64,000 nucleotides of DNA from Spirochaeta lutea. GTDB taxonomy: Bacteria > Spirochaetota > Spirochaetia > DSM-27196 > Salinispiraceae. A program made the position numbers and the translations under genes. The stretch covers positions 136,853-200,852 of the forward strand of contig NZ_JNUP01000071.1 of assembly GCF_000758165.1 (NCBI RefSeq), written 5' to 3'. Under the pieces are notes generated by a model. That model searched no databases. It saw only the letters and a list, made by a program, of their open reading frames with translations, and was not told the origin of the DNA. This document shows positions 13,540 to 32,561 of the stretch, one piece after another (positions within the stretch are counted from its first letter, which is position 1; each line of letters begins with the position of its first letter).

Positions 13540-13582
13540 TGTAACATAGGTGACAGATACGGTAAAGATTAGCCCCTATGCT
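13540..13582 (+). promoter_or_regulatory. Crp/Fnr-type operator and class II promoter for the nitrate operon
   Basis: TGTAACATAGGTGACA (13540-13555) has arms TGTAA and TGACA around six bases, the Crp/HcpR-like geometry. A TATGCT hexamer at 13577-13582 would place the start near 13589 and the operator centre at about -41.5, the classic class II activator position. No -35 hexamer is needed in that arrangement. The regulator is presumably the divergent Crp/Fnr protein. Confidence 0.55.
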
Positions 13583-13643
13583 GGTACCATATCGGGGTTC
13601 AGCCCAGAGGTTGTTTCCCTGTTACACAGTAAGGAGGTATCCA

Positions 13644-14918: not shown

Positions 14919-14920
14919 GA

Positions 14921-17086: not shown

Positions 17087-18318
17087 GTAACCAATCCATC
17101 AGCCCAGGGAGCGCCATACACGGCGGCACGAGCAGCAACTCTGCCGGCAAGAGCACTACAGCCGGGATCGGAAAAGCATCGGCCAGCAACAGCCCTGATG
17201 GTTTCAGAAAGCCGGCCGGCCCCGGGGCGGGGGAATCGGCACTACCGGTAACCGACCGGATGGGCCGGCCCCTCCGGGACCTGCGGATATCGGTAACCGA
17301 TGAATGCAATTTCCGCTGCACCTACTGTATGCCCAAGGAGCTTTTCGGAGAGGGTCATCCCTTCATGCCCCCTAGCCGGTACCTCTCCTTTCCGGAGATA
17401 CGCGACCTGGTGGCCATGATGGTACCCCTGGGAGTCCGCAAACTGAAGATCACCGGGGGCGAACCCCTGCTGCGCCCGGGACTGCACCAGCTCATCGCCA
17501 GGCTCACCCGGATCCCGGGGATTGAGGATGTGGGGCTGATAACCAACGGCTTCCACCTGAAAACCCTGGGACCCCGGCTCCGGGATGCGGGGCTCACCCG
17601 GGTTACCGTAAGCCTGGACAGCCTGGATGGCCAAACCTTCGCCGCTATTACCGGCCGGGGAGGAAGCCTTGGCCAGGTATTAGAGGGGATTCGAACGTCT
17701 CTGGATCTGGGATTTTCCCCGGTAAAGGTCAACATGGTGGTTCAGCGGGGCGTCAACGACCATGAGGCGCTGTCCATGGCGGAGTACTTCCGGGAGAGCG
17801 GGGTGGAGCTGCGATTCATTGAATATATGGACGTAGGACGCCGGCTGGACTTCCGGTCGGGGCTTCTGGTTCCCAACCGGGAGATCCGGGATAGCATTCA
17901 CCGGCACTGGCCCCTGGAACCCCTGGAGGATGCCTACTACGGCGAGGTGGCGGAAAGCTACCGGTATGCCGATGGCGGGGGCCGGGTCGGGTTCATTTCC
18001 AGTATGACCCAGCCATTCTGCGGCAGCTGCACCCGGCTGCGGCTTTCGGCGGACGGAAAGCTCTACCGCTGTCTGTTCTCGGGTATCGGCCTGGATATTA
18101 AGTCCCTCATCCGGGGTGAATCCGGAGACGGCGATGGTGCCCGGAATAAGGCTGCCGGATCGGGAGGCTGGGATCAGGCGGAGGCAGCCCTACGGCGGTT
18201 CTGGGGTATCCGGGAGGACCGGTATTCGGAGTTGCGGGGCAGTCAGGCTTTGGCCGGGCATTCGAATCACCCTGAACCGAAAGAAAAGCGGATTGAAATG
18301 TACCGCATGGGAGGATAG
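17083..18318 (+). CDS. moaA: GTP 3',8-cyclase MoaA
   Basis: Radical SAM enzyme that, with MoaC, converts GTP to cyclic pyranopterin in molybdenum cofactor synthesis. The first cluster is in CNFRCTYC (C75, C79, C82). The second cluster binds at FCGSCTRLRLSADGKLYRC. The protein ends in the required Gly-Gly (MYRMGG). It carries an unusual low-complexity Ser/Gly/Ala extension of about 60 residues before the core. ATG 17083 overlaps the reductase stop (ATGA). A second start within the extension cannot be excluded. Confidence 0.95.
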   Translation: MSNQSISPGSAIHGGTSSNSAGKSTTAGIGKASASNSPDGFRKPAGPGAGESALPVTDRMGRPLRDLRISVTDECNFRCTYCMPKELFGEGHPFMPPSRYLSFPEIRDLVAMMVPLGVRKLKITGGEPLLRPGLHQLIARLTRIPGIEDVGLITNGFHLKTLGPRLRDAGLTRVTVSLDSLDGQTFAAITGRGGSLGQVLEGIRTSLDLGFSPVKVNMVVQRGVNDHEALSMAEYFRESGVELRFIEYMDVGRRLDFRSGLLVPNREIRDSIHRHWPLEPLEDAYYGEVAESYRYADGGGRVGFISSMTQPFCGSCTRLRLSADGKLYRCLFSGIGLDIKSLIRGESGDGDGARNKAAGSGGWDQAEAALRRFWGIREDRYSELRGSQALAGHSNHPEPKEKRIEMYRMGG

Positions 18319-18320
18319 CT

Positions 18321-18875
18321 ATGAGCAGTCATCTTGATGCCTCGGGAACCCCCCGAATGGTAGATGTAGGGCAGAAGCCGCCCACCCAGCGGAGGGCTGT
18401 GGCCCGGGGCTATGTTCTGATTCCCCGGAGTCTTGAGGGTCTGGAGGGGGGAGAGTGGTGGAGCCCCAAGGGCCCGGTGTTTCAGACCGCGGTTATCGCG
18501 GGTATTCAGGGGGCAAAACAGACCAGTACGGCTATTCCCCTCTGCCACCCCATTCCCCTGACCTCCTGTCAGGTGCGCCTGGAGCCCCTGGACTGGCAGA
18601 CCTACCTGGCCGAGAGCCGGCACACCGGGTTCCCCCTAACCACCACCGATCCCGATGAACACCAAGTCCCGACGGTTATCCGGGTGACCTGCACCGCCGC
18701 CACTACGGCTCCTACGGGAGTGGAGATGGAGGCCCTCAGCGGGGTGAGCGCCGCCTGTCTGACGGTGTACGATATGGGAAAGTCCGTTACCAAGGGGATT
18801 GTGATTTCTGCTCTGAGCCTTCTGGAAAAAACCGGGGGCAAGGAGGATTGGAGGGCCCGGGGTTATGAAGGCTGA
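18321..18875 (+). CDS. moaC: Cyclic pyranopterin monophosphate synthase MoaC
   Basis: Second enzyme of molybdopterin synthesis, acting on the MoaA product. Conserved blocks are MVDV near the start, LCHPIPLT, and TGVEMEALSGVSAACLTVYDM. The 184-residue length is slightly long, with a short insert (TTTDPDEHQVP). It begins two bases after moaA, with GGGAGG upstream, and overlaps the next gene by 11 bases. Confidence 0.95.
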   Translation: MSSHLDASGTPRMVDVGQKPPTQRRAVARGYVLIPRSLEGLEGGEWWSPKGPVFQTAVIAGIQGAKQTSTAIPLCHPIPLTSCQVRLEPLDWQTYLAESRHTGFPLTTTDPDEHQVPTVIRVTCTAATTAPTGVEMEALSGVSAACLTVYDMGKSVTKGIVISALSLLEKTGGKEDWRARGYEG

Positions 18876-20277
18876 ACCGCGTTTTAAGATCAAACCCACC
18901 CCGGGGGGCTGGTACTACCATCCCTACGAGATCAGCCTGAGCGGCTACTCCGGTTCGGGAAAAACCACCCTGGCCCGGCAGCTCATCGCCGCCCTGGCTG
19001 AGCGCCGGCTGACCTGCGGGTTTATCAAACACGATGCCCACCGCTTCGAGATGGATAAACCGGGCAAGGACACCCACCAGGCCAGCCAGGCCGGCGCCCG
19101 GGGGGTCTACATCCAAGACCCCCGGCATGCCGCCTTGATTCTGGATCACGGGCCCCAGGGTCCCAGCCAGGGCTTGGCGGAGCAGGCCCTGGCTCCCCTG
19201 GACTGCCTCATAATTGAGGGGAACAAACATTCCGACCTGCCCAAGCTGATTCTCCTGGATCCCCGGGGGGAGATAGACCAGGAGATACTCCAGGGTGATT
19301 TCACTGCCCCCCTGGCCCTGATCCATGCCCGGGGGGACGAAGCCCGGGCCCTGGCCCTGGCGGACTCCGATTTCAACGCCGAAACCGGGGCCCCACCATC
19401 CCCCGGCATTCCCGTCTTCTGCCGGGATGATATTCAGGGTATCACAACCTGTATCCTGGAATACTGGGCCGGCCGGGTTCCCCCGGTCCATGCTCTCATT
19501 CTCGGCGGCGGCCAAAGCTCCCGGATGGGGCAGGATAAATCCCTGCTTTCCTACCACGGCACCACCAGCCAGCTCGCCCACACCGCCGATATGGCAGCCC
19601 GGGCGCTGGAGGAGATGTTCCCGAGCCGCCAAGCCGCCCCCGGACCGGAATCCCCCATTCCCGACGCCGGACCGCTCCCGGACCGGTCTTCCGACCCATC
19701 CGAAACCGAGTCCTTGGACCGGACTGAGATCAACTCTCCTGACCGGGCCGGGCGCAGGTCGAAGGAAAGGGCGGAAGGCGGGCCGGAATCCGCGGAAGGC
19801 CGGCCCAGGGTCTACCTATCCCTGCGCCCCGGGCAAGAGGTCCCCGAGGATGCCCGGGACCTTCCGGTTATCCGGGACTGTTTTCCCGGCCGGGGTCCGG
19901 TGGCGGGTATCCTGAGTGCCCTGGAACACCAACCCGGAAGTGCATGGCTGGTACTCAGCTGTGATCTCCCCCTTCTCGACCCCCGGGATCTGGCGCGTCT
20001 TCTAAAATCCCGGAACCCCTTCGCCCTGGCTACCAGCCTGAAGGGATTCCAGGATCAACCCGAGCCCCTCTGCGCTATCTACGAGCCCAAGGCCCGACCC
20101 AGGCTGCTCTCCTTCATCGCCCAGGGATCCTGGTGCCCCCGGTGGGCTTTACGCTCAGGAGGGACCACCCTAATCACCCCGGAAAATCCCCAATCGGTCT
20201 TCAACGCCAATACCCCCGAGGACCGTCGCCGGGCGGCGGAGCTGCTCCAGCTGTCCGAGTCAGGAGATACCCCATGA
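18865..20277 (+). CDS. MobB-MobA fusion (molybdenum cofactor guanylylation)
   Basis: The N-terminal MobB-like domain (about residues 1-190) is a P-loop GTPase with Walker A GYSGSGKTT and the IKHDAHRF segment. The C-terminal MobA-like domain (about 205-470) has the nucleotidyltransferase signature ILGGGQSSRMGQDKSLL and the metal-binding CDLPLLDP. MobA links GMP to molybdopterin to make the bis-MGD needed by the adjacent reductase. About 70 residues of low complexity (Pro/Ser/Glu-rich) interrupt MobA after its first helix. The gene overlaps moaC by 11 bases and moeA by four. Fusions of these two functions are known, so this is not an assembly join. Confidence 0.92.
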   Translation: MKAEPRFKIKPTPGGWYYHPYEISLSGYSGSGKTTLARQLIAALAERRLTCGFIKHDAHRFEMDKPGKDTHQASQAGARGVYIQDPRHAALILDHGPQGPSQGLAEQALAPLDCLIIEGNKHSDLPKLILLDPRGEIDQEILQGDFTAPLALIHARGDEARALALADSDFNAETGAPPSPGIPVFCRDDIQGITTCILEYWAGRVPPVHALILGGGQSSRMGQDKSLLSYHGTTSQLAHTADMAARALEEMFPSRQAAPGPESPIPDAGPLPDRSSDPSETESLDRTEINSPDRAGRRSKERAEGGPESAEGRPRVYLSLRPGQEVPEDARDLPVIRDCFPGRGPVAGILSALEHQPGSAWLVLSCDLPLLDPRDLARLLKSRNPFALATSLKGFQDQPEPLCAIYEPKARPRLLSFIAQGSWCPRWALRSGGTTLITPENPQSVFNANTPEDRRRAAELLQLSESGDTP

Positions 20278-21782
20278 AGCTAGCAGACACCACCACGGTT
20301 CAGACCGTTATCGCCCAGATTCTCGCCGCCCAGGAATCATCCCGGGACGACGGGGGGGTAGAAACCATTCCGCTCGAAAGGGCTCTGGGCCGCTGCCTGG
20401 CCCGGGATCTCACCGCCGACCGCCACCAGCCCCCCTTCAACCGCTCTGCCATGGACGGCATTGCCATAGCCCGGGCCGATCTGCCGGCTGCGGGGCCTCA
20501 AAATACCCTTGACTGCCCCGAGGAGGCCTGGTGCTTCCAGAGCCTGGGCATTCTTGCCGCCGGCCAGGATCCGGGTCCCCTTGCCCATCCCGGTTTTTCT
20601 GGCAATACCAGCCAGGCAGGGAGAACCCCTTCGGAATCCGAGGCCCGGCCAAGCCCCGGCGCAGTCCCCCTGAAGCGGGCCGCCGGGACACGGGATAACA
20701 AGCAGGCACCCCCCCTGCCTCCCTGTGTGGAGATTATGACCGGAGCAGCGGTGCCCCCGGGTTTCGATACCGTTATCCGCTACGAGGATCTCCAGCGCAG
20801 CCCGGATTCTCAGGCGGCGGGAAAGAATCCCCCTTCGCCGGAACCAGGGCCTGAAGCCGGGCCCGTCCGGTGGATCTGCCGGGGCTCCATTCCGGCCCGG
20901 GGGGCCAACATCCATCCCCGGGGGGCTGATTACCAGAAGGGTGCCGTCATCCTGGAGGGCGGCCAAATCATCACCAGCAGCCACATCGCCGTGCTGGCAA
21001 GCTGCGGCTACACCCAGGTTCCACTCCGGACGCTGCCCTCCATTACCATTGTAGCCACCGGGGATGAGCTGGTATCCCCGGATACCACCCCCCTGGACCA
21101 CCAGATCCGGGCCTCCAACCACCTGAGCATCGCCGGAGAACTTACCAGCTGGGGATTCCCCCCCGGGGAGGTACGCCTCTGTCCCGATGATCCCCAGGCC
21201 CTTACCGAAACAATTCGCCGCGGCCTGAAGGAATCCCGGGTCCTAATCCTTACCGGGGCCGTATCCAAGGGCGCCTATGATCATATTCCCGGTATTCTGG
21301 AAGGCCTGGGGGTGGAGATTCGGATCCACGGGGTAAGTCAGCGACCCGGCAAACCCCTGCTGGTGGGCCGGGCACGGAAGGCCGGGAGAGCGGATTCCCT
21401 GGTCCTGGGGCTTCCGGGCAACCCGGTTTCCGCCCTTATTAACCTGCGGCGCTACCTGATCCCAGCCCTGGCCCTACAATCCATCCCCGGATCTTCGGGT
21501 CGTATTTGGGCCCCCGGTCCCGCCAGCCCCATGTCATCCTGGGCGGCCCTGGGCTTCCCCCTGCGTCTGGCCAGGGAAATCACCTTCGAACCCCCGCTGA
21601 CCTACTATCCCGGGGTGTCTCTGGAGATGTACCAGGGCGAGCTTACCCTCGTACCCGTCCGGGGCAACGGTTCGGGGGATTTTTTCCATCTCAGCAAAAC
21701 CGCAGGCTTTATCGTCATGCCCAAAGACCGGACCCGGCTGGAGGCCGGCAGTCTGGTACAATTTTATCCCTGGGGAGTGTAA
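20274..21782 (+). CDS. moeA: Molybdopterin molybdenumtransferase MoeA
   Basis: Inserts molybdenum into adenylylated molybdopterin. ATG 20274 overlaps the previous stop (ATGA) with CAGGAGAT upstream; the longer upstream frame is not conserved. Family motifs are RSAMDGIAIA, IMTGAAVPPGFDTVIRYED, VATGDELV, LTGAVSKGAYD and LGLPGNPVSALI. Low-complexity Pro-rich inserts are placed before IMTGAA and after RYEDLQ, lengthening the protein to 502 residues against a usual 400 or so. No mogA/moaB partner gene is present in this operon. Confidence 0.95.
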   Translation: MKLADTTTVQTVIAQILAAQESSRDDGGVETIPLERALGRCLARDLTADRHQPPFNRSAMDGIAIARADLPAAGPQNTLDCPEEAWCFQSLGILAAGQDPGPLAHPGFSGNTSQAGRTPSESEARPSPGAVPLKRAAGTRDNKQAPPLPPCVEIMTGAAVPPGFDTVIRYEDLQRSPDSQAAGKNPPSPEPGPEAGPVRWICRGSIPARGANIHPRGADYQKGAVILEGGQIITSSHIAVLASCGYTQVPLRTLPSITIVATGDELVSPDTTPLDHQIRASNHLSIAGELTSWGFPPGEVRLCPDDPQALTETIRRGLKESRVLILTGAVSKGAYDHIPGILEGLGVEIRIHGVSQRPGKPLLVGRARKAGRADSLVLGLPGNPVSALINLRRYLIPALALQSIPGSSGRIWAPGPASPMSSWAALGFPLRLAREITFEPPLTYYPGVSLEMYQGELTLVPVRGNGSGDFFHLSKTAGFIVMPKDRTRLEAGSLVQFYPWGV

Positions 21783-21784
21783 CC

Positions 21785-22033
21785 ATGAACAACACCGTAA
21801 CCCTTCGATACTTCGCCCAGCTGGCTGAACAGCGGGGATGCCACACCGAGCAGGTGGAGCTTCATCCCGGCCAGCGGGCCGAGGAGCTCTACCGTCAATT
21901 GCAGCAGCGCTACCGCTTCTCCCTGGATCAGGAGATTCTGCGACCCGCGGTTAACGGAGTCTACACTACCTGGGACCAGGAACTTCAGGCCGGGGACGAA
22001 ATCGCCTTTATTCCCCCCGTGGCTGGGGGGTGA
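21785..22033 (+). CDS. moaD: Molybdopterin synthase small subunit MoaD
   Basis: An 82-residue ubiquitin-fold sulfur carrier ending in Gly-Gly (PPVAGG), the tail that is adenylylated by MoeB and then thiocarboxylated. The start at 21785 lies two bases after moeA. The ribosome site is weak (GGAGTG), so translation is likely coupled. Confidence 0.92.
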   Translation: MNNTVTLRYFAQLAEQRGCHTEQVELHPGQRAEELYRQLQQRYRFSLDQEILRPAVNGVYTTWDQELQAGDEIAFIPPVAGG

Positions 22034-22494
22034 GTATGCAGGACAACCAACTCCCGGATACGGGATTCCGCCTTACGGAAGAGCCCATTGAGATTCTTAG
22101 TAGCGATCTTTCCCCAGGGTTGATTCGGAGCCATCCCCAAACCGGCGGGATCGTGACCTTCGAGGGGCGGGTCCGCAATCATCACCAGGGCCGGGCTGTC
22201 CTCCGCCTCTCCTACTCCGCCTACGAGCTCCTGGCCGGAAACGAAGGCCAGGATATTGCCCGGGAGGCCAAGGAGCGGTTCGGACTGGACTGGGCGTGGA
22301 TTATCCACCGCACCGGGGATCTCTCGGTGGGAGAGATGGCGGTCTGGATCAGCGCAGCCAGCCCCCACCGCCAGGAGGCCTTCGCGGCCTGCCGGTTCAT
22401 GATTGACGAGGTAAAACACCGCCTGCCGGTGTGGAAACATGAATACTACGAGGACGGAAGCCATGAATGGGTCTACTGTGCACACCATACCTGA
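22030..22494 (+). CDS. moaE: Molybdopterin synthase catalytic subunit MoaE
   Basis: Uses the MoaD thiocarboxylate to make the dithiolene of molybdopterin. The conserved block is GIVTFEGRVRNHHQGR. The catalytic lysines are in MIDEVKHRLPVWKHEYYEDG. GTG 22030 overlaps the moaD stop. ATG 22036 is an alternative start that changes only two residues. Confidence 0.94.
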   Translation: MSMQDNQLPDTGFRLTEEPIEILSSDLSPGLIRSHPQTGGIVTFEGRVRNHHQGRAVLRLSYSAYELLAGNEGQDIAREAKERFGLDWAWIIHRTGDLSVGEMAVWISAASPHRQEAFAACRFMIDEVKHRLPVWKHEYYEDGSHEWVYCAHHT

Positions 22495-23794
22495 ATACTA
22501 CTGCCGGCAGGTGAGTCTGCCCCAGGTCGGCACCCTGGGGCAGGAACGCCTGTCCCGGGCCAGGGTCCTCATCATCGGTCTTGGAGCCCTGGGAAGCCCG
22601 GCGGCGGAGTATCTGGCCCGGGCCGGGGTTGGGAATCTCCACATCATGGACGGTGATGGGGTGGAACTCAGCAACCTTCATCGCCAGCCCCTGTACACCC
22701 CCCTGGACCGGGGCAGTCCCAAGGCCCGGTCCGCTGCCGCCAGGCTTGAGACGGTGAATCCCCACCTCCGCATTACCTGGGAGGAGCGTTTTTTTGCTCC
22801 CGGGCAGTCTCTGGCGGTCTTCCCCGAGGGATTGCCTGACCTGGTCCTGGATTGCACCGACCGGTTCTCCAGCCGTTTTACCATCCACGATGCCTGTCAA
22901 GCCGCGGGCATCCCCTTGATTAGTACAGCCGTTTCGGGTACTACCGGCCAGCTGCAGATGTTCCATTTCCATCGCGGCCCCGGGCCCTGCCTACGCTGCC
23001 TCTACCCCCGGGGTTTAGAAGACGGATGTACCGGGAGCTGTGCCCAGGACGGCATTTTGGGTGCATCAGCGGGGATTATGGGCAGCATTCAGGCACTCAC
23101 CGCCCTGAGCTTCCTCCTTAACCAAGAGGTACCCCCGGGGGGCCAAACCATCACCCTGAACCTAACCACCCTGGAGCAGTACACCGTCCGCTGGCCCCAG
23201 GCCCGGAGTTGCCCGGGCTGTTCATCCCCGGCCACGCCCCAGGAGCTTCCCCCCGCCCCCGTGCCAGCCTCCCCCTCTCGTCTTGGTGATGGAACACCGG
23301 CCGAACCTTCCTCGACCGGGGGCGGTACAGACCATCATGACCCGGAAGCGCCTCAATCCGGGTATACCGGCCGGCCGCCCCGCAGCCCCGGCGTCCTGCC
23401 CTCTGCCTCGTCCCAGAACCGTTCCTCGGCCGGTTCTTCGGGTGCTCTTTCGGCCAGTTCCCAGGACCATTCCCCGGACCCTTTCCCGGACCCTTTCCCT
23501 GAGGACGGGGAGCCGGTCTGCATTCTCGATGTCCGCCAGGCCTGGGAAGCCCACCCCGAGGATACCTTGCTGTTCCCCCAACGTGTACATCTCCCTGCCC
23601 AAGACATTCAACAGATCCTCAAGGAACGGCCCGAAACCCTGGACCCTCAGACCCATTACCTGATCATCTGCGAACAGGGTATCCGCAGCGCCGGGGTAGC
23701 CCGGTACCTGGAAGGTCTGGGGTTTAGGTCGGTCCGCCACCTGGAGGGCGGTATTGCACCCCTGCGGTCCCTGGTGAAGGGCGGAAGACCATGA
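22463..23794 (+). CDS. moeB: MoeB/ThiF-type E1 enzyme fused to a rhodanese domain
   Basis: Activates MoaD by adenylylation, and the fused rhodanese can deliver the sulfur. The ATP-binding loop is GLGALGSPAAEYLARAGVG. Adenylylation residues lie in DGDGVELSNLHRQ. Zinc cysteines are CLRC and CPGC. After a long Pro/Ser-rich linker (about residues 255-345 from the upstream start), the C-terminal rhodanese domain has active-site Cys in IICEQGIRSAGVA. ATG 22463 is chosen for GAGGACGG upstream. ATG 22439 is possible and adds eight residues. The domain order matches eukaryotic MOCS3-type proteins. Confidence 0.92.
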   Translation: MNGSTVHTIPEYYCRQVSLPQVGTLGQERLSRARVLIIGLGALGSPAAEYLARAGVGNLHIMDGDGVELSNLHRQPLYTPLDRGSPKARSAAARLETVNPHLRITWEERFFAPGQSLAVFPEGLPDLVLDCTDRFSSRFTIHDACQAAGIPLISTAVSGTTGQLQMFHFHRGPGPCLRCLYPRGLEDGCTGSCAQDGILGASAGIMGSIQALTALSFLLNQEVPPGGQTITLNLTTLEQYTVRWPQARSCPGCSSPATPQELPPAPVPASPSRLGDGTPAEPSSTGGGTDHHDPEAPQSGYTGRPPRSPGVLPSASSQNRSSAGSSGALSASSQDHSPDPFPDPFPEDGEPVCILDVRQAWEAHPEDTLLFPQRVHLPAQDIQQILKERPETLDPQTHYLIICEQGIRSAGVARYLEGLGFRSVRHLEGGIAPLRSLVKGGRP

Positions 23795-24657
23795 GCATGC
23801 AGCTTCTCCTGCCAGGGGTCTTTTTTGTCACCGCCCTGCTCTACAGTACCGCCGGGTTCGGGGGAGGCTCCACCTATTCGGCGGTGCTGAGCCAAACCAG
23901 CCTGCCCCGGTTCATGATTCCCCTGGTCAGTCTGCCCTGCAATATTGTGGTTTCCGGTACGGGCTTTTTCCGCCTGTTGCGGTCAGGAGAGGTTCCGGTC
24001 CGCCAGCTTCTGAGAATCACCCTGGTTTCGGTCCCCGCGGCCTTCTTGGGCGGCCTGGTTCCGGTATCCCGCCGGCTCTTTGTCCTTCTTCTGGGGATTC
24101 TGCTGCTTTACGCCGGGGTCCAGGCCCTTATTACTCATCTGATTCCAACATCCCGCCCCACCCCCAGCCCTGGGGCCGATACCGCCCCGGTTACCCCCCG
24201 GAGGCCCTTGTCCTTGGGAATCCGCCCAGATCCGCCTGCCCGATTTTCAGCCCAGGAATCCCGGGAGCAGTCCCTGTTACCCCAGAACTTCCCCGGTCCA
24301 TTTCTCTACGCCGCCGGTACGGCCATCGGTTTTGTCAGCGGTATCACCGGCATCGGAGGGGGAATAGTACTATCACCCCTGCTCTGGCGGTATACCAGTC
24401 TGGCACCCCGGGCCATCGCCGGAATGTCCTCGGGGTTCATCCTCCTGAACTCCCTGGCGGGGCTGTCGGGTCAGATCATTAAGTCGGGGCTTCCCGATTC
24501 CTCCATCCTGAACCTCACCGCCGGGCTGGTCATCGCCGTTGCCCTGGGCGGACAGATTGGATCCAGGATTCTCACCCGGTCAATTTCCGTCAGGGTATTG
24601 GGCATCGGCACGGGTTCTCTGCTGGTCGCGGCTGCAATTCGCCTCATTGGGATGTAG
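23791..24657 (+). CDS. TauE/SafE-family anion permease
   Basis: A 288-residue inner-membrane protein with about eight hydrophobic segments. It has the family's two internally related halves, each beginning with a Gly-rich motif (AGFGGGSTYSAVL and SGITGIGGGIVLSPLL). Members export sulfite, sulfonates or related anions, and the substrate here is unknown. A Pro-rich loop of about 50 residues joins the halves. It overlaps the previous gene by four bases and is the last of the operon. A role in handling oxyanions such as sulfite or molybdate fits the context but is inference. Confidence 0.88.
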   Translation: MSMQLLLPGVFFVTALLYSTAGFGGGSTYSAVLSQTSLPRFMIPLVSLPCNIVVSGTGFFRLLRSGEVPVRQLLRITLVSVPAAFLGGLVPVSRRLFVLLLGILLLYAGVQALITHLIPTSRPTPSPGADTAPVTPRRPLSLGIRPDPPARFSAQESREQSLLPQNFPGPFLYAAGTAIGFVSGITGIGGGIVLSPLLWRYTSLAPRAIAGMSSGFILLNSLAGLSGQIIKSGLPDSSILNLTAGLVIAVALGGQIGSRILTRSISVRVLGIGTGSLLVAAAIRLIGM

Positions 24658-24690: not shown

Positions 24691-27579
24691 ATGACCACAC
24701 GATCCATAGTCCACCGACTCATTCTTGTCCTGGTTCTGGGTACCATCGCTCTCCTGCCCGGTACTGCCGATGTATTTTCGTCCCCCAAGGCCCTGTACCA
24801 GATTAAAACCGACCATTTCACCTTCATTTTTTCTGAAGAAACCCGGCAAAGCGCAGAGTACCTGGCGCATCGGGCTGAGGCTATGTATGCACGGATAGCC
24901 GGCCTGTTGGATCAGCCCATGAACCTCCATATACCCGTGGTTATTACCCCGGATACGGATCAACTCAACGGCTACTTTACCGCCATGCCCTCCAACCGCA
25001 TCGTGCTGTACCAGGCTCCCCTGCTGCCCAATGCAGGGTTTGCCACCTACAACCATACCCTGGAAAAGCTCTTTCTCCACGAACTTACCCATGCCGTGAG
25101 TATGAACATTCGGGCTCCCATCTACCGATTTCTTTCATGGATCGTGGGAGACATAATTCTCCCCGCAGGCCTAACGGCTTCCCAAAACTTCATCGAGGGG
25201 GTAACGGTCTCCTTCGAGAGTTTGGACGGGTACGGCCGCGCCAACGGCACCGCATACGCCCAGGTTATCCAGCAGGATATCCTCGAAGACCGGTTCATGA
25301 CCTTCAACGAGACCTCGGGTATACGCCGTAACTACCCCGGGGGCTCCTGGTACATCTACGGCGGATGGTTTAGCCGCTATCTTCAGGAAACCTATGGCAT
25401 GGAATCCTACGCCGAGCTTTGGAAGGAGTTCGGGGCCCTCAGGGGCATATGGGACTCCCTGCTCTTTCCCGGTGCATTCCGCAGGGTGTACCGCCAGCCC
25501 CTCACCGATGTTTGGGAGGATTTCCGCCGGTGGATGAGCCTCAAAATCCCGGTGGTAACCCAGACCCTGCCCGTTACTCAGGACTGGGACAGCATCCAGG
25601 CTATAACCGCCCGGGGAGACCAGGTGTATTATGCCGGAAGCGAGGGGATTTACCTCCTCCAGCTCAGTACGGGCAAGCGAACCCGCCTGGCCTCGGCAGA
25701 CCAATCGGTCAACCGGTTATCCCTTTCCCCGGACGGTCAGCGCCTGCTGATCAGTTCGTTTCGTCCCTCCGAACCGGGGCTTGCCCGGGCCCAGCTGCGG
25801 ATCTATAACCTGGCGGCCCGCCGTTTTGAATCCACCGAACTGCCCCGGGGTCTCACCGAGGCCGCCTTCACCCCCGAGGGAATTCTTGCCCTGCGTATCC
25901 AGGGGTATAGCACCGATCTGGTGCACCTAGATCACCAGGGAAGAGAAACCACCCTCTACCGCGGCAGTCTAACCAGTATCCCCTCCCATCCCGGGATCTA
26001 TCAGTCCGGGTACATCCACTTTCTTTTACAGCAGGGGGGAGTCAAGGCCATCGCCCGACTTCATCGGGAATCCGGGGAGATTGAAATCCTCCAAAGCTCC
26101 ATACCCTTGGGAGAGATCCGCACCCTGTCCATCACCGACCAGGGCATAACCTTCGCCTGGGATAACAACCTCACCATGTTCAAGGCCGGCCGTCTGGGCC
26201 CCCGGGGGCTGGAACTGCAGACCACCCCCATCTCCGGAGCCGTCGCCTACCCGGTCCTGACCGAGGATTCCCTGGTGTACGTCGGGAGCTTCTCCATGGG
26301 GGAACGGATCATGGAATACCCCCTGGACAACCCCGCCATGACGCCGACCCCGGCTGACCACACCTGGATCCCCCTGGATTCCTGGTCCGCCCCCCATCGG
26401 ACTACCAGTTCCCTGGGCCGTCCGGCGGATACCTTCCAGCCCCTGGACTTTTCCCCCGAGCAAGGAACCGATCAACTACCGGCCCTGGAATCAAAACCCT
26501 ACTACCCCATTACCCGGGTGCTTCTACCCCAGCAACGGATTCCGACCCTGGTTCTGGATCCCATGGCCGAGGAACTGAAAGATCTGGTGCAGGGTGCGGG
26601 GATCATAACCATGTCCAGTGATCCTACCGAGAGGCTCTACCTAGATTGGTATGCAACCTACCTGTGGAATTGGCGATTCGTAGATGGGGGGATTGCTCTT
26701 CGGGAAACAAGCCTGCCGGTAGATCTCCTTCTTTCTGTGACGGACGGCTTTACCTTTCCCAGCCCCCTGCTCAGCCGGGCTTACCGCACCCTCCGGGCGA
26801 GCCTGGGGGTGGGAGATCAGATTTCCTTTTCCCCTTCCCAGCGCAGGTTGTCCTGGCAGGTTGATTCTGGGGTGATTTTCCAGAGTTCAGGCCCCCAGAG
26901 CGACATTGGGGTCACCAGTCCCTACCAGTGGGATCTGGGCGGGCCGGTTATTCCCATCAGCGCCCAGGTTGGGTACAGCGAACTCTACGGGGGAATCTTC
27001 CCGCCCTATGAGCAGCGGGGAATATACTCCCAACTCTCCTGGCACGGCCTGATCCGCGGTGTGGATACCAGCCCCGAACTCCCCAATTTCGCAGCCCTCA
27101 AGGCCGGTTTCACCCTTCCCTTCCTGAGCCTAGCCCTGGACGCAGCCGGATTTCTCAGCCTCCAGGAGGATGTCGGATTCCTCCCCTATGGGGCGATCCT
27201 GAATAACCAACTCTTTCCCGGGAGCATCCATCAGCCCCAGTACTTTGCCTACGGAAGCTACCAGGAAACACCCAGCCCCTACTACGTCAGCGCCCAGGCC
27301 TCCAGCACCATCCGCTTTGACATCGGCAAGAGCCTGCCTGGTCAATTCTATCTGCAAAAGGGCTCCCTGGGAGGGGGATACCGTATGGCCTTCCTCAACG
27401 GCGACTACCTGGATTCCCTCTACCTGCAAGCCGCCCTAACCTTTCACTGGAGCCAGGGAACCATTGAAGTGCTTCCCCTGCGCCTGGGCATTGAGGCGGA
27501 ATACACCCTTCGGGAGCCCGCCGGGCAGGGCTGGCAGATCCGGCTGCTGAGTGTCCTGGATATAGCAGGGCTTCTCTGA
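24691..27579 (+). CDS. Exported metallopeptidase-like protein with beta-propeller and C-terminal beta-rich domain
   Basis: A 962-residue protein with a signal peptide (LILVLVLGTIALLPGTADVFS). The N-terminal domain is a gluzincin-type zinc peptidase: H130-E-L-T-H134 with E169 in NFIEGV as the probable third ligand. From about residue 290 there are TolB/WD40-like repeats (LSLSPDGQRLLISSF and similar). The last 300 residues are rich in alternating aromatic beta-strands, as in outer-membrane barrels. The substrate is unknown. It may act on the cell surface or in the periplasm. There is no Shine-Dalgarno; TATTCT at 24678-24683 could give a leaderless start at ATG 24691. Its upstream neighbour is the molybdenum cofactor operon, 33 bases away. 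Confidence 0.75.
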   Translation: MTTRSIVHRLILVLVLGTIALLPGTADVFSSPKALYQIKTDHFTFIFSEETRQSAEYLAHRAEAMYARIAGLLDQPMNLHIPVVITPDTDQLNGYFTAMPSNRIVLYQAPLLPNAGFATYNHTLEKLFLHELTHAVSMNIRAPIYRFLSWIVGDIILPAGLTASQNFIEGVTVSFESLDGYGRANGTAYAQVIQQDILEDRFMTFNETSGIRRNYPGGSWYIYGGWFSRYLQETYGMESYAELWKEFGALRGIWDSLLFPGAFRRVYRQPLTDVWEDFRRWMSLKIPVVTQTLPVTQDWDSIQAITARGDQVYYAGSEGIYLLQLSTGKRTRLASADQSVNRLSLSPDGQRLLISSFRPSEPGLARAQLRIYNLAARRFESTELPRGLTEAAFTPEGILALRIQGYSTDLVHLDHQGRETTLYRGSLTSIPSHPGIYQSGYIHFLLQQGGVKAIARLHRESGEIEILQSSIPLGEIRTLSITDQGITFAWDNNLTMFKAGRLGPRGLELQTTPISGAVAYPVLTEDSLVYVGSFSMGERIMEYPLDNPAMTPTPADHTWIPLDSWSAPHRTTSSLGRPADTFQPLDFSPEQGTDQLPALESKPYYPITRVLLPQQRIPTLVLDPMAEELKDLVQGAGIITMSSDPTERLYLDWYATYLWNWRFVDGGIALRETSLPVDLLLSVTDGFTFPSPLLSRAYRTLRASLGVGDQISFSPSQRRLSWQVDSGVIFQSSGPQSDIGVTSPYQWDLGGPVIPISAQVGYSELYGGIFPPYEQRGIYSQLSWHGLIRGVDTSPELPNFAALKAGFTLPFLSLALDAAGFLSLQEDVGFLPYGAILNNQLFPGSIHQPQYFAYGSYQETPSPYYVSAQASSTIRFDIGKSLPGQFYLQKGSLGGGYRMAFLNGDYLDSLYLQAALTFHWSQGTIEVLPLRLGIEAEYTLREPAGQGWQIRLLSVLDIAGLL

Positions 27580-27765: not shown

Positions 27766-28677
27766 CTACACATCACTCTCCACCGGGGTATGGGGATCGT
27801 TGCCCCACTCCAGCCAGGAACCGGCGTAGTTACGCACCCGGGTGTACCCCAGCATCCGCAAGGTCAAATAGCTGTGGCTCGACCGCGCCCCGGACCGGCA
27901 GTACACGATCACCTGGTTCTCCGGACTCAGCCCCAGGCCGCGGTAACGCTCCCGAAGCTCCTCCAGGGGCCGAAAGGTGGGATCGAAGAGATCGCGGATA
28001 TGCTCCTCCCAATTACAGTGTACCGCACCGGGAATATGGCCGTTCCTCTTCGCCGTGGGCAATACCCCCCGGTACTCGGCCTCGCTCCGGGCATCCACGA
28101 TCACCGTATTCGGATCTTCCAGAGCCTCTTCTATGTGTGATTTTAACGCCAGGGCATGGGGAACCGCCACCGGTACGGCCAGGGGGGGTACGGCTGTCCC
28201 CGGATTTTCCCGGCTTTCCAGCTCAAACCCAGCGGACTGCCACCCCGGAATGCCGCCGTCCAGGAGCTGAACCTGCCCCCGGCCGAAACACTCCAAGATC
28301 CAGAACAACCGGGCCGAGGGCACCAACCCGCTGTCATCATAGAGCACCACCGGTCCCTCGGCGCCGATCCCCACCCGGGCCAGACGCTGGGCCAGCTCCG
28401 GCCAGGGAAGCAAGGCTCCCCGCTCGCTCAGGGGGTCCTGTAACCGGCCAGCGGGTAAATTCACCGCCCCGGGAACATGTCCCTTGGCATAGTCAGACTC
28501 GCCCCGGCAATCGATTACCAAGGGCTTGGAAGAACCCTTCTCACCCTGGTGGGTATGCCCTGCTCCCTCGGAGGAGCCGGCTCCGGGACCGGAATCCCTA
28601 CCCAGCCCGGAGGGGGAACTCCCCTGCACGCCGAGCCAGGAAGCCAAATCCTGTACATCGATCCGTAGACTGCTCAT
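27766..28677 (-). CDS. Cytoplasmic two-domain rhodanese (thiosulfate/3-mercaptopyruvate sulfurtransferase-like)
   Basis: Transfers sulfane sulfur from thiosulfate or mercaptopyruvate to an acceptor. Two rhodanese domains are visible. The first is non-catalytic, with Asp in place of Cys (VVLYDDSG). The second has the active Cys in VIVYCRSGARSSHSY. A short Gly/Ser-rich stretch interrupts the first domain near its start. No signal peptide is present. The ATG at 28677 is preferred over 28713 because AGGAG is seven bases upstream. It is the last gene of the minus-strand sulfur operon, eight bases after the TusA-like gene. Confidence 0.9.
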   Translation of the reverse strand: MSSLRIDVQDLASWLGVQGSSPSGLGRDSGPGAGSSEGAGHTHQGEKGSSKPLVIDCRGESDYAKGHVPGAVNLPAGRLQDPLSERGALLPWPELAQRLARVGIGAEGPVVLYDDSGLVPSARLFWILECFGRGQVQLLDGGIPGWQSAGFELESRENPGTAVPPLAVPVAVPHALALKSHIEEALEDPNTVIVDARSEAEYRGVLPTAKRNGHIPGAVHCNWEEHIRDLFDPTFRPLEELRERYRGLGLSPENQVIVYCRSGARSSHSYLTLRMLGYTRVRNYAGSWLEWGNDPHTPVESDV

Positions 28678-28685
28678 GGTAACTC

Positions 28686-28913
28686 CTAGGCCCGCTTTAC
28701 CCGGACCACCCAATGTCCTGCACCGGGCTTCTCAATCTCCAGCACCTCGTGCCCTTCCAAATCAAGGGACCGGGGTACATTGGATGCGGATTCACTGTTT
28801 CCTAGGTGAATCTCCAGTATCTGGCCCGAAGCTAACTGCTCCACGGCCTTTTTCGACTTTACGAAGGTGTAGGGACAAACATCCCCCTGAATATCCAAAA
28901 CCTGATCTGCCAT
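28686..28913 (-). CDS. TusA-family sulfur carrier (TsuB/YeeD-like)
   Basis: A 75-residue single-domain protein with the TusA signature DIQGDVCPYTFVKSKKAVEQL. The Cys near residue 13 carries persulfide. TusA proteins relay sulfur between sulfurtransferases. In other bacteria a TusA-like protein (YeeD/TsuB) partners the thiosulfate channel YeeE/TsuA, and a YeeE gene lies two genes upstream in this operon. The start at 28913 follows AAGGAG; the longer frame upstream is not conserved. Confidence 0.9.
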   Translation of the reverse strand: MADQVLDIQGDVCPYTFVKSKKAVEQLASGQILEIHLGNSESASNVPRSLDLEGHEVLEIEKPGAGHWVVRVKRA

Positions 28914-29103
28914 AACCACTCCTTGGTTGATACGATGCTGCAAATAACAAGGGCCCTCCGGCCTTCCGCCGACCTTCCCCTGTGGGAATCTGCTGGTCCC
29001 TGCTGCATAAACGGGCCTGGAACAAACCGGGCCCATGGTGAATTTCTGCCTTTCAGGGACGATCGGATCCGGGTAGCCCGGACCCGATGCAACCCGCCAG
29101 GTC

Positions 29104-30126
29104 TTAGAGCTGTTCTACCGGAAGATCTTCCCGGTTTCCCCATTCAGCCCAGGATCCGTCGTATACCCGGACCTTCTGGTATCCCAGGAGGCGCAGAGCT
29201 ACGTAACTATGGGCACCCCGTACGCCGGTCTGGCAGAGGGCCACAGCCTCGTCGCTTTGATCCACCACCTGGTCGTACAGTTGGGCCAGCTCGCCTGCGG
29301 GCTTGAAACTGCGCCCCTGACCCACATTCTGGGTCCACTCGATGTTAACCGAGCCGGGAATATGGCCGCCCCGGGCCGCCCTGACATCCTCTCCGGTATA
29401 CTCTCCGGCACTCCGGGTATCCAAGACCGTAACGCTCTGGTTATCCAGGTTCGCAAGAATGTAGTCCGCGTCGGCGATGAGTTCGGGCTGGGGATTAGCA
29501 GTGAAATCACCCCGGGCAGGCACCTCAGCCTCGGCACTGAGCTCTAACCCAGCGGCCGTCCAAGCAGCAAGTCCGCCGTCCAGAATATGCACCCGGGAAT
29601 GCCCCAGGTACTCCAGGGCCCAGAACACCCGGGATGCCCACAGGCCGTTACCGCCGTCGTACACCACCACCGGACGGTCCTGAAATACCCCGGCGTCAGC
29701 GATATCCAGGGCGGCTATTTCCGGATCCGGAAGCATCCCCGAAACCCCGCTCACCGTATCCCAGACCGATTCCCTGGGCAGAAGCGCCGCTCCGGGAATA
29801 TGTCCCTCCAGAAAGTCATCCAGGTTCCCCGATGCATCAATGATCGTCACCGAGTCCTGATTTTCTGCCAACCACTGGGGATCCACCAAGATTTCATCTC
29901 CTGGTGTCCGGGATACTCCCTGAGCCGGTTGTTCCTGGCTGCTCCCGTCTGCGTCCTGTGCCTCTTGGCCCTGTGCCTCCTGGCCTCGAGCCGCGGATTC
30001 CTGGGGCTCAGAGCTGCCCCCGGCGAAACCCTGGAATCCCAAAACAAGAACTCCCAAAACCGCCAGAGCGGCTATCCTAAAGCCCCGGGAAACGCCGCGG
30101 CCCTCTTCACTAGTAAACCTCGTCAT
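29104..30126 (-). CDS. Exported two-domain rhodanese
   Basis: A 340-residue periplasmic sulfurtransferase. A signal peptide (IAALAVLGVLVLGFQGFAG) is followed by a spirochaete-like GGSSEP start and a Gln/Ala-rich linker (QEAQGQEAQ). Two rhodanese domains follow. The first lacks the catalytic Cys (VVVYDGGNG), and the second has it in ALCQTGVRGAHSY. It probably processes thiosulfate or sulfane sulfur outside the inner membrane before uptake. AGGAGG lies eight bases upstream of the start. It follows the YeeE gene by 17 bases. Confidence 0.9.
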   Translation of the reverse strand: MTRFTSEEGRGVSRGFRIAALAVLGVLVLGFQGFAGGSSEPQESAARGQEAQGQEAQDADGSSQEQPAQGVSRTPGDEILVDPQWLAENQDSVTIIDASGNLDDFLEGHIPGAALLPRESVWDTVSGVSGMLPDPEIAALDIADAGVFQDRPVVVYDGGNGLWASRVFWALEYLGHSRVHILDGGLAAWTAAGLELSAEAEVPARGDFTANPQPELIADADYILANLDNQSVTVLDTRSAGEYTGEDVRAARGGHIPGSVNIEWTQNVGQGRSFKPAGELAQLYDQVVDQSDEAVALCQTGVRGAHSYVALRLLGYQKVRVYDGSWAEWGNREDLPVEQL

Positions 30127-30143
30127 AGTCCTATCCTCCTTAT

Positions 30144-31154
30144 TTATGGACGTATTGTTTCATTCTTATGACCCTGAATAACCAGCCAGGTCATGATCCA
30201 ACACCCTGCCATGATGCTGAACACCCCCAGGATGGAACCGATGCCCAGGGTTGCAATACCGGTAATGCCGTGGCCGATGTTACACCCCCCGGCAATGGCC
30301 GCCCCGGCCCCCATGACCAATCCGCCCCCGGTCTGCCGGGCAAAGGTCCGGGCATCGGGAAGCCGCCACTGGGCCTCCCCCTGGATCCAGGCTGATCCGT
30401 AGGCTCCCAGGGGAACCCCGATGAGGATGTACAGCGGCAATCCCACCCCTGAACCGTCCCCGGATACCATCAGCCGAATCAGGGCTGCACTGGGTTGGGT
30501 GAAGGAAAGCCCGAAATCCCGCCCCACCAGGGCGGATAGCAGCCAGGCCGCCAGGGCGATGATTCCCACCGTCAACCCCGTTCTCTTCCAGCCCCAGCCG
30601 ATCACAAACTTCTGCTTCGGGGCCCGCACCAGATACACAGTCAAAGCCGCTACAATCAACCCGACGATAATCCATCGTCCGGCAATACTCTCCAGCCCCG
30701 TCACATTAAACAGGGTCGCTTCCCGTCCCTGGACATCCAGAACCGGTCCCCGGAGAACGCGCTGTACCGGGGCCAGTGCTCCCCCGTCCAGGGCCGCGGT
30801 TCCGATCAAAAATCCCACCAGGGCACCCCAGGAACCCAGCATGCCCCGGCCGGCCCGGTAGTAGGTTCCGCTAGCGCAGCCCCCTGCCAGTACCATGCCG
30901 ACCCCAAACATCAGTCCGCCTACAATAAGGGCGGGCCAGAACAGGGGTGCGGTCTGGGGGTACAACACCCCCAGATCCTGGAGCAGGGTTACCCCGGGAA
31001 TATTAATCACCAACACCAGAAACCATGCCCGTAACAGGCTCTTATCCTTCTCGAATACAATGCTCCGGAATGCGCTGTTCATGCAGAATCCGCCGCGCTG
31101 CAAGGCCCATCCCAGAACAACTCCCAGCAGGAGACCTCCTCCTATTTCAATCAT
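30144..31154 (-). CDS. tsuA: YeeE/YedE-family thiosulfate transporter (TsuA-like)
   Basis: A 336-residue inner-membrane protein made of two pseudo-symmetric halves. The three conserved cysteines that line the known thiosulfate path are present in GGFCMNSA, AGGCASGTYYRAG and AGGCNIGHG. The family structure was solved for a Spirochaeta thermophila protein. The start at 31154 has AAAGGAG upstream, only a few bases from the end of a MITE-like element. Clustering with a TusA-like protein and two rhodaneses strongly supports thiosulfate or sulfane-sulfur import. Confidence 0.93.
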   Translation of the reverse strand: MIEIGGGLLLGVVLGWALQRGGFCMNSAFRSIVFEKDKSLLRAWFLVLVINIPGVTLLQDLGVLYPQTAPLFWPALIVGGLMFGVGMVLAGGCASGTYYRAGRGMLGSWGALVGFLIGTAALDGGALAPVQRVLRGPVLDVQGREATLFNVTGLESIAGRWIIVGLIVAALTVYLVRAPKQKFVIGWGWKRTGLTVGIIALAAWLLSALVGRDFGLSFTQPSAALIRLMVSGDGSGVGLPLYILIGVPLGAYGSAWIQGEAQWRLPDARTFARQTGGGLVMGAGAAIAGGCNIGHGITGIATLGIGSILGVFSIMAGCWIMTWLVIQGHKNETIRP

Positions 31155-31169
31155 CCCTTTCTCCTTTGA

Positions 31170-31275
31170 TAGTGCACAAAAGGTTGTAAACTACACCGGA
31201 TATAGCGGGGTTGCCCGGGGTAAGGCCCCAGGGGTAGCGCCGCAAATGGGGAATGTTACAAGCTTTTGCGCACTA
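31170..31275 (+). mobile_element. MITE-like inverted-repeat element, complete copy
   Basis: This 106-bp element starts TAGTGCACAAAAGGTTGTAA and ends TTACAAGCTTTTGCGCACTA, so 18 of 20 terminal bases are complementary. The interior holds ACACCGGATATAGCGG and GGCCCCAGGGGTAGCGC, both shared with the copy at 57729-57834. TA at each edge could be a target duplication, as in IS630/Tc1-type MITEs. It fills nearly the whole gap between the propeller gene and tsuA, so it is transcribed within that operon. Confidence 0.85.
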
Positions 31276-31287
31276 GGTACTCCGTTT

Positions 31288-32457
31288 TTAAAAACAGGCA
31301 AACGAACCGTTTTTCTGAACCAATGAAGCAACACCCCAGACATCATCACCCAGGACATCCTCTCCCCCGGGCCAGGCCCAATCCCCGGATCCACCCTCCT
31401 CGGCAGCTACCTTCCAGCGCCGGACAACCCGTCCCATGGCGATCTGGGCCGCTTCGCCGCCGGCTCCCAGGGCCAACACCGTCTCTCCCGGACCCCGGGT
31501 CAGAGCCTGAACCCGGAAGTCCAGGCCAATCCTCGCCGTTACCTCACGGCTCCGGGGCGCAAACTGAACCAGCCCCCGGCCGGAAGCCTCCACAAAACTC
31601 ACCACATCCGTCACCACCGGGGGCCGAAGCTGCAGATCAGCATCGAAGGTGGCAACCTCCCCGCCGGTCCGTTCATCCACAACGGTAACCTGCCCCTGGC
31701 CGTTCAATCCCCACAGTTCTGTGTATCCCCCATCGAAGGCCGCCAGCTCCAGGGACGTCGGCAGGGTCTCGATAACCTCCAGGTTCTGGCTAAAGATGAT
31801 TCCAATGCCCTCCGCACCGGGACGGTAGAGCCGGGTCCCCCTGCGGTTTGGCAGAACCGGTCCGAAACCCCGGGGGATCCTGGCAGAACGCGGATCCGAT
31901 AGCTCCAATAGCCGGTGGGAAAACTCCGTTACAACCTCGGTCTCACCCTCCTCTTCCCCGGGAGCTGGAGAAATCACCCATACCCGGTCGCCGTTGGGCG
32001 AAAAGCTCAAGGCCCGGAGGGCTCCCAGCCCCGTGGCAATCTCATTTTGCAATTCAAAGGTCTGGGCGCTGTACACCCGGATTACATCACTATCCTCAAA
32101 CAGGACAAATACGGAGACTCCCCCGGGGGTGGGCACTACTGCCAGGGGAACCTGGGGCAACCCTACCCGGGCAACGACCTCCTGGCCGGCAGTATCCAGG
32201 GCCACCAGTTCGCGAGCCTGGGGCAGAACCAAAAACAGTGCCCCCTCGGCCGGCTCAGCAGTCTCGGGTAGCTCGGCCCCGGGTAGATCTCCTACTGCGG
32301 CCTGTGATTCCAGCCCCGGCGCCCCCGCACCCAGAACCTGCAAACCCGCCGGGCCGGGGTTCTGATGCAACCCCGCCAGGGCAGTGATGGCTGCTGCCGT
32401 TCCTAAGGCTGCCACGGGCCCCCGAAACCGTTTCCATGACTCCGGTATTCCTGCCAT
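31288..32457 (-). CDS. Membrane-anchored or exported beta-propeller protein of the thiosulfate operon
   Basis: A 389-residue protein with an N-terminal hydrophobic segment (GPVAALGTAAAITALAGL). It then has repeats of YVTN/Lp-type propeller blades, for example LFLVLPQARELVALDTAGQEVVARV and VTVVDERTGGEVATFDADL. No enzyme motif is visible. It is the first gene of the sulfur operon, ahead of tsuA, but the family is not a known thiosulfate component. It may bind a substrate or scaffold the exported rhodanese. The upstream promoter at 32533-32561 drives it. Confidence 0.75.
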   Translation of the reverse strand: MAGIPESWKRFRGPVAALGTAAAITALAGLHQNPGPAGLQVLGAGAPGLESQAAVGDLPGAELPETAEPAEGALFLVLPQARELVALDTAGQEVVARVGLPQVPLAVVPTPGGVSVFVLFEDSDVIRVYSAQTFELQNEIATGLGALRALSFSPNGDRVWVISPAPGEEEGETEVVTEFSHRLLELSDPRSARIPRGFGPVLPNRRGTRLYRPGAEGIGIIFSQNLEVIETLPTSLELAAFDGGYTELWGLNGQGQVTVVDERTGGEVATFDADLQLRPPVVTDVVSFVEASGRGLVQFAPRSREVTARIGLDFRVQALTRGPGETVLALGAGGEAAQIAMGRVVRRWKVAAEEGGSGDWAWPGGEDVLGDDVWGVASLVQKNGSFACF

Positions 32458-32532
32458 TATGTATCTCCTTGTCTCACTATGACGCCCGGTTCCCCGGTAC
32501 CCCTACTCCAGCTCATTGTCAACTTTGTTGCT

Positions 32533-32561
32533 ATAGTATGTTTACTTTAAAGTCATGTCAA
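32533..32561 (-). promoter_or_regulatory. Promoter of the thiosulfate operon with GTCAAC repeats
   Basis: On the minus strand, TTGACA (32556-32561) and TACTAT (32533-32538) are 17 bp apart. GTCAAC occurs three times nearby (near 32518, 32557 and 32591), two of them inside the 11-mer TTGTCAACTTT (32516-32526 and 32589-32599). These direct repeats could bind an activator or repressor. The surrounding gap 32458-32752 is AT-rich and has no gene. A short stem CCCCGC/GCGGGG lies at 32644-32665. Confidence 0.65.

Follow-up and report, generated by a model that had tools for sequence, protein, structure and literature searches.

A beta-propeller with an invariant single-cysteine tail accompanies the TsuA-type channel in Spirochaeta lutea and its relatives

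Introduction

The uptake of thiosulfate by TsuA and TsuB (YeeE and YeeD) has been described in S. thermophila and E. coli (PMC11073785; PDB codes 6LEO, 8J4C and 8K1R). The Discussion of that structural study, published in 2024, did not settle to which proteins TsuB passes its sulfur. Here, we analysed a stretch of 64,000 nucleotides of Spirochaeta lutea DNA, hereafter called the window (its genome is labelled G000), which contains five genes on the minus strand (27766-32457, open reading frame calls) encoding a beta-propeller, a TsuA-type channel, an exported rhodanese, a TusA-like protein and a second rhodanese. We found that the propeller belongs to this system and that it ends, in all tsuA-linked relatives, in the residues FACF. 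The reading that we favour, at about even odds, is that the operon serves the uptake of thiosulfate or sulfane sulfur, with the propeller tail acting as an extracytoplasmic sulfur-carrying arm.

The operon resembles the TsuA-TsuB systems in the three relay cysteines, which stand at matching positions of TsuA, and in the adjoining TusA-family partner. In contrast, the S. thermophila and E. coli loci have neither a propeller nor an exported rhodanese and continue with other downstream genes, and the TusA-like partner of S. lutea has CPYT in place of CPxP. In the locus that was taken as that of S. thermophila (L129), yeeD and yeeE are followed by dsrE-like genes, and no propeller is present.

Three further systems are of interest for comparison. 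For SoxT, a YeeE relative of sulfur oxidisers found in a SoxY/SoxS/DsbA context, delivery from SoxY has been proposed (PMC11582611), and SoxY carries its sulfur on a mobile C-terminal swinging arm (PMC5336275). The present locus shares with this pair a YeeE-family transporter, for which a periplasmic donor with a mobile C-terminal cysteine arm is proposed here too, whereas SoxY is small, has an unrelated fold, a GGCGG arm and the partner SoxZ; no sox genes were seen beside the cassette, the context of which looks assimilatory. DsrC binds sulfur on the penultimate Cys111 of its flexible C-terminus (PMC3397948). The DsrC/TusE proteins thus share with the propeller a penultimate cysteine in a flexible C-terminus, but DsrC is small, cytoplasmic and of another fold, whereas the propeller is membrane-tethered and predicted to lie outside. 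The parallels with SoxY and DsrC are analogies of mechanism and not signs of family membership, as fold and arm sequence differ. Finally, a protein-thiocarboxylate route to methionine (Krishnamoorthy and Begley 2011) is cited in PMC5764234.

Results

Co-occurrence of the propeller with TsuA

The features of the operon are listed below.

31288-32457, minus strand: propeller of 389 amino acids, membrane-anchored and predicted to be extracytoplasmic, its only cysteine being the last residue but one (open reading frame, AlphaFold2, VIA-align, family alignment, cysteine count).
32365-32439, minus strand: predicted N-terminal membrane helix of the propeller, residues 7-31, with positive charges ahead of it and about 40 disordered residues behind it (AlphaFold2, hydropathy, charge).
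31291-31302, minus strand: codons of the invariant C-terminal Phe-Ala-Cys-Phe (25 of 25 tsuA-linked homologues; synonymous codons vary).
30144-31154, minus strand: tsuA, TsuA/YeeE-type thiosulfate channel with C24, C93 and C291 (PF04143, 2.8e-74; 1.7e-37 to 6LEO; alignment).
29104-30126, minus strand: exported rhodanese of two domains, the first lacking a cysteine, the second with the active loop CQTGVR (PF00581, loop alignment).
28686-28913, minus strand: TusA-like carrier in the TsuB/YeeD position, ATG start, CPYT replacing CPxP (PF01206, 3.5e-19; motif).
27766-28677, minus strand: cytoplasmic two-domain rhodanese with the loop CRSGAR, accessory and not part of the core (PF00581, 5e-39).

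The initial annotation had named these five genes in this order, and open reading frames, Pfam matches and fold bore out each of them at its position on the minus strand. Its reading of the first product as a beta-propeller also held, AlphaFold2 and VIA-align pointing to a seven-bladed fold. It had overlooked the FACF C-terminus and the membrane anchor of the propeller as well as an interspersed repeat; the tail is the strongest clue to the system.

The relatives were examined in 46 genomes from 16 genera and eight families of one order of Spirochaetota. The propeller search matched 25 of the 46 genomes, a few of them weakly, and a close TsuA was likewise present in 25. In all 25 of these genomes, which cover the eight families, the propeller or its end lies directly upstream of the close tsuA, contig-end fragments included. 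Among the 21 genomes without a detected TsuA, the propeller was found in one (G025), where the contig ends inside the propeller gene. The co-occurrence is thus highly significant (Fisher, 3.7e-12), and the distance matrices of propeller and TsuA are closely correlated (r = 0.89; Mantel, 0 of 2000). The lack of co-occurrence outside this genome that the initial annotation had set as a refuting outcome was clearly not seen. The usual order of the cassette is propeller, tsuA, exported rhodanese, tusA.

Beyond the order, no propeller relative was found in 393 Spirochaetota genomes besides generic propeller matches; one candidate, L095, proved on checking to be a generic YVTN-type propeller. An alignment scan of 84,980 species genomes, which was based on a single peptide pattern and can overlook remote relatives, gave none outside Spirochaetota, all twenty of its loci being titled Spirochaetales, Spirochaetaceae or Spirochaeta. 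A single-protein scan of genome contigs with the propeller found nothing, and viral contigs contained no relatives.

An invariant single-cysteine tail

FACF followed by a stop codon ends 25 of 25 tsuA-linked propellers, an observation based on 19 complete sequences and on six more in which the C-terminal end could be read, so that a penultimate C-terminal cysteine, as in DsrC/TusE, is present throughout. In the 19 full-length propellers, for which the start codon was set, it is the sole cysteine of the protein. This conservation stands out in a family with a median pairwise identity of 29% (range about 19-86%) and a mean column identity of 33%: the alignment holds only two invariant runs of at least four columns, FACF and PTPGG, in addition to FSxxG, His181 and scattered columns. 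The tail reads [SNDG]FACF, is almost always preceded by glycine and contains no SoxY-type GGCGG arm. Since all four residues vary synonymously in their codons, and all three stop codons are used, selection acts on the protein; conservation at the level of the DNA was rejected on the same grounds.

The 46 genomes contain 35 matches to the FACF-stop pattern with a real stop codon, 24 of which are propellers. The other 11 terminate frames of 6-84 codons and, once, an unsupported frame of 239 codons. As no other credible gene in these genomes ends in this way, a general tag for sorting, export or degradation was rejected. This bears on the view that the propeller, whose function would then have nothing to do with thiosulfate, is a lineage-specific passenger in a TsuA-TusA operon, FACF marking it for sorting or proteolysis. 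Bacteria are known to use C-terminal tags, and the confinement of the family to one order would fit such a passenger. Nevertheless, the tail is not shared with other credible genes of these genomes, and the linkage has been kept across all eight families despite the divergence of the propeller, which makes this view quite improbable.

Fold and topology of the propeller

The propeller matches no Pfam family: only a sub-threshold match to SUKH-4 and no DsrC domain were found. It also scores far below the curated cut-offs for YncE (13.4 vs 400 bits) and for the pyrroloquinoline quinone-associated model (12.4 vs 287.3 bits) and belongs to no curated family tested. In the AlphaFold2 model, a membrane helix (residues 7-31) leads into a disordered leash (about 31-70), which is followed by the propeller, modelled with confidence, and by a disordered C-terminus. 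VIA-align matched it to seven-bladed propellers, with Z scores of 26.9 on 1l0q and 26.4 on 1ri6. In a second, better model (predicted local distance difference test score, 86.5), the last closing strand spans residues 338-344 and the final residues are disordered; a mobile tail bearing the sole cysteine is thus predicted in both models. Every member has at least one positive charge ahead of the N-terminal helix, and positive charges equal or exceed negative ones there in all members. This charge pattern makes it most likely that propeller and tail point outwards from the inner membrane.

The fold is that of the YncE, YVTN and 6-phosphogluconolactonase-type seven-bladed propellers (3VGZ, 1L0Q, 1RI6). 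The nearest matches in sequence and structure are YVTN, YncE, NirF and lactonase-type proteins, the functions of which are unrelated, while thiocyanate dehydrogenase and nitrous oxide reductase propellers appear among the VIA-align matches at the level of the shared fold only. We know of no matched propeller that carries sulfur on a C-terminal cysteine.

Propellers are commonly scaffolds, and the face of this one, with PTPGG and His181, could bind a ligand and organise the rhodanese and TsuA, the tail cysteine then sensing the redox state or sulfane sulfur, or serving as a contact in assembly. The invariance of PTPGG, FSxxG and His181 besides FACF and the unrelated functions of the nearest matches would agree with this. 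A sensor, however, needs neither the loss of all other cysteines nor a fixed position one residue from the end, and no regulator gene is consistently linked to the cassette. We consider this explanation unlikely.

TsuA, the rhodaneses and the TusA-like protein

TsuA matches the Sulf_transp family over its full length (PF04143, positions 1-310 of 310; 250.9 bits against a cut-off of 27). Its cysteines C24, C93 and C291 are invariant in 13 homologues and align with C22, C91 and C293 of the S. thermophila TsuA of solved structure (numbering of PMC11582611). Since it scores below the curated NCBIfam models for TsuA (200.6 vs 400 bits; 165.3 vs 645 bits), it is a relative and, by those models, no equivalog.

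Both rhodaneses consist of two domains and have their active cysteine in the second (Pfam, loop alignment), with two PF00581 stretches in the exported (5e-34) and in the cytoplasmic protein. In the exported family, the cysteine of domain 1 has been lost and CQTGVR in domain 2 is kept in most members. In 21 of the 25 genomes, an exported rhodanese is encoded after tsuA, which makes a handling of sulfane sulfur on the outside reasonable. The cytoplasmic rhodanese adjoins the cassette only in the window and in G003, G016 and G018. The TusA-like protein has its catalytic cysteine in 20 of 20 homologues and lacks the CPxP motif, with CPYT in 19 of them and CPFT in G003. The initial annotation had envisaged matched sulfurtransferases on both sides of the membrane, relaying sulfane sulfur before and after transport. 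The outer half of this relay agrees with the gene order, whereas the matched pair is no rule: the constant inner partner is the TusA-like protein, which belongs to the core, and the cytoplasmic rhodanese does not.

The main rival to a sulfur-carrying arm is that the propeller is an obligate subunit of TsuA. FACF would then plug the outer vestibule, and its cysteine would gate the channel by a reversible mixed disulfide or by binding thiosulfate, without carrying sulfur in turnover. The strict one-to-one pairing and co-divergence with TsuA, the invariant hydrophobic phenylalanines flanking Ala-Cys, and the three relay cysteines already present in TsuA are all consistent with docking or gating. 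It leaves unexplained, however, why an exported rhodanese stands beside tsuA in most genomes, and other TsuA proteins function without such a subunit (PMC11073785). We regard this rival as somewhat unlikely.

The S. lutea genome encodes further YeeE-family proteins. One of them (G000:C45, L002 1300-3471) forms a single long frame with a C-terminal two-domain rhodanese, contains a single in-frame TAG and stands directly after an exported rhodanese gene. Two short, adjoining YeeE/YedE half-proteins (L003/L004, G000:C61:251417-252358) resemble the split PmpA/PmpB type.

Thiocarboxylate genes and sulfur metabolism

In seven genomes (G022, G026, G027, G028, G029, G031 and G033), the neighbourhood of the cassette encodes a ThiF/MoeB-like E1 enzyme, a ThiS-like protein with residues after its GG and a desampylase-type JAMM protease, and an O-acetylhomoserine sulfhydrylase is also present in several of these neighbourhoods. 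All four stand together at L041, L042, L049 and L179. Two further genomes (G008 and G045) have one gene of the thiocarboxylate set each at a contig end. In exactly four genomes (G021, G040, G041 and G043), tusA is not beside tsuA and lies in a separate hcy-type cluster; G020 carries the same kind of cluster with tusA. The tusA gene therefore tracks the thiocarboxylate genes as well as tsuA. Overall, thiocarboxylate genes were found in 13 of 26 propeller genomes vs 1 of 20 others (P = 0.001). In G040:C419 (L166 1453-2172), a JAMM domain and a TusA-like domain share one open frame with no stop codon between them, a possible fusion.

Krishnamoorthy and Begley are said to have described, in 2011, a protein-thiocarboxylate pathway to methionine composed of HcyS, HcyF, HcyD and MetY. 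The cluster of the relatives resembles it in having the ThiS-like protein with residues after GG, the E1-like enzyme, the JAMM protease and the O-acetylhomoserine sulfhydrylase; it differs in its physical linkage to the genes of a thiosulfate channel and of a TusA-like protein, and it is absent from the window genome.

In G000, there was no match for the JAMM protease, and neither ATP sulfurylase, nor a PAPS_reduct match over the cut-off, nor a sulfite reductase domain (NIR_SIR) was found, whereas some relatives do carry PAPS_reduct genes. Without these markers of sulfate and sulfite assimilation, S. lutea should need reduced sulfur. This need argues against a system that moves sulfane sulfur outwards, with rhodanese and propeller serving its disposal, as do the import of thiosulfate by TsuA of the same family (PMC11073785) and the linkage of tusA to homocysteine-forming genes in relatives. 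The sequence gives no direction of transport, and a gene for a TauE-type exporter is located nearby (23791-24657); export or detoxification is nonetheless very improbable.

Neighbouring features of the window

Two non-coding features adjoin the propeller gene.

32533-32561, minus strand: promoter-like site TTGACA-17 nucleotides-TACTAT upstream of the propeller (consensus scan, 10 of 12 matches).
31169-31275, no strand assigned: interspersed repeat of about 106 bp between propeller and tsuA, non-coding and outside the system (about 40 copies in the genome).

The start of the promoter-like site coincides with the upper limit of the locus in the initial annotation (32561), and such sites occur in the region about as often as expected by chance. 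The repeat has near-palindromic ends (AGTGCGCAAAAGC.. and ..CCTTTTGTGCACT) and fills the gap between propeller and tsuA, with about 40 similar copies elsewhere in the genome. A truncation of the propeller by its insertion was rejected, as the repeat lies beyond the coding sequence and the tail matches all relatives.

On the plus strand, convergent with the sulfur operon and separated from it by one gene, a run of genes (13578-24657) encodes a major facilitator superfamily transporter, a molybdopterin oxidoreductase (nitrate-reductase-like), MoaA, MoaC, a MobB-MobA fusion, MoeA, MoaD, MoaE, a MoeB-rhodanese fusion and the TauE/SafE-type exporter. At 24691-27579, also on the plus strand, lies the gene for an exported protein of 962 amino acids. 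This protein contains a HELTHA motif like that of metalloproteases, matches the PD40 propeller family only weakly and has a C-terminal part resembling an outer-membrane barrel.

Discussion

With regard to the mechanism, a single N-terminal helix and a flexible leash would hold the propeller at the outer surface of the inner membrane. The cysteine of FACF could take up sulfane sulfur or thiosulfate, as a persulfide or an S-thiosulfonate, and would probably be loaded by the exported rhodanese. The loaded tail would then give its sulfur to the outer mouth of TsuA, which would move it via its three cysteines to the TusA-like protein, and this in turn would pass it on to an acceptor in the cytoplasm. 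For about half of the relatives, the probable acceptor is the ThiF/ThiS/JAMM set, forming a protein thiocarboxylate for O-acetylhomoserine sulfhydrylase and thus homocysteine. In S. lutea, which lacks JAMM, the cytoplasmic rhodanese or the MoeB-rhodanese/MoaD pair may take this part. It is tentatively possible that this membrane-tethered propeller represents the first of a new class of carriers for sulfane sulfur outside the cytoplasm. Its invariant FACF arm, loaded on the outside, would then place an outer station ahead of the cysteine chain of TsuA, and the sulfur would be relayed covalently from the rhodanese through the propeller, TsuA, the TusA-like protein and a protein thiocarboxylate to homocysteine.

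Several points weigh against a sulfur-carrying arm. A single conserved cysteine can equally be a docking, redox-sensing or metal-binding residue, and the route could run in reverse, as sulfur export. In one subgroup (G016, G018, G042 and G044), tusA comes directly after tsuA, without an intervening exported rhodanese, and the FACF propeller is kept; as the rhodanese is not beside tsuA in these four genomes, it may not load the tail everywhere. The thiocarboxylate genes were seen in only half of the propeller genomes and not in that of the window. The genomes are mostly fragmented metagenome-assembled genomes, and several adjacencies were read from gene fragments. Moreover, TsuA/TsuB of S. thermophila and E. 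coli work without a propeller, which is not needed for basic transport (PMC11073785); the propeller must therefore add affinity, another donor, protection of the sulfane sulfur or the like.

A literature search of open-licence papers returned none that joined TsuA, a rhodanese and a propeller, none that linked a TusA-type carrier with thiocarboxylate homocysteine synthesis, and none on a propeller that carries sulfur on a C-terminal cysteine. The operons described here name a candidate acceptor of the sulfur of TsuB, the ThiF/ThiS/JAMM/O-acetylhomoserine sulfhydrylase set, and candidate partners on the outside, the single-cysteine propeller and the exported rhodanese. If the tail does carry sulfur, the propeller would join SoxY and DsrC as the third unrelated fold with such an arm at its C-terminus and would suggest a group translocation of sulfane sulfur that starts outside the membrane. 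Our results suggest that an extracytoplasmic propeller-tail module, undescribed in the papers found, is an addition to TsuA/TsuB uptake and that, in several relatives, the route leads straight into methionine synthesis.

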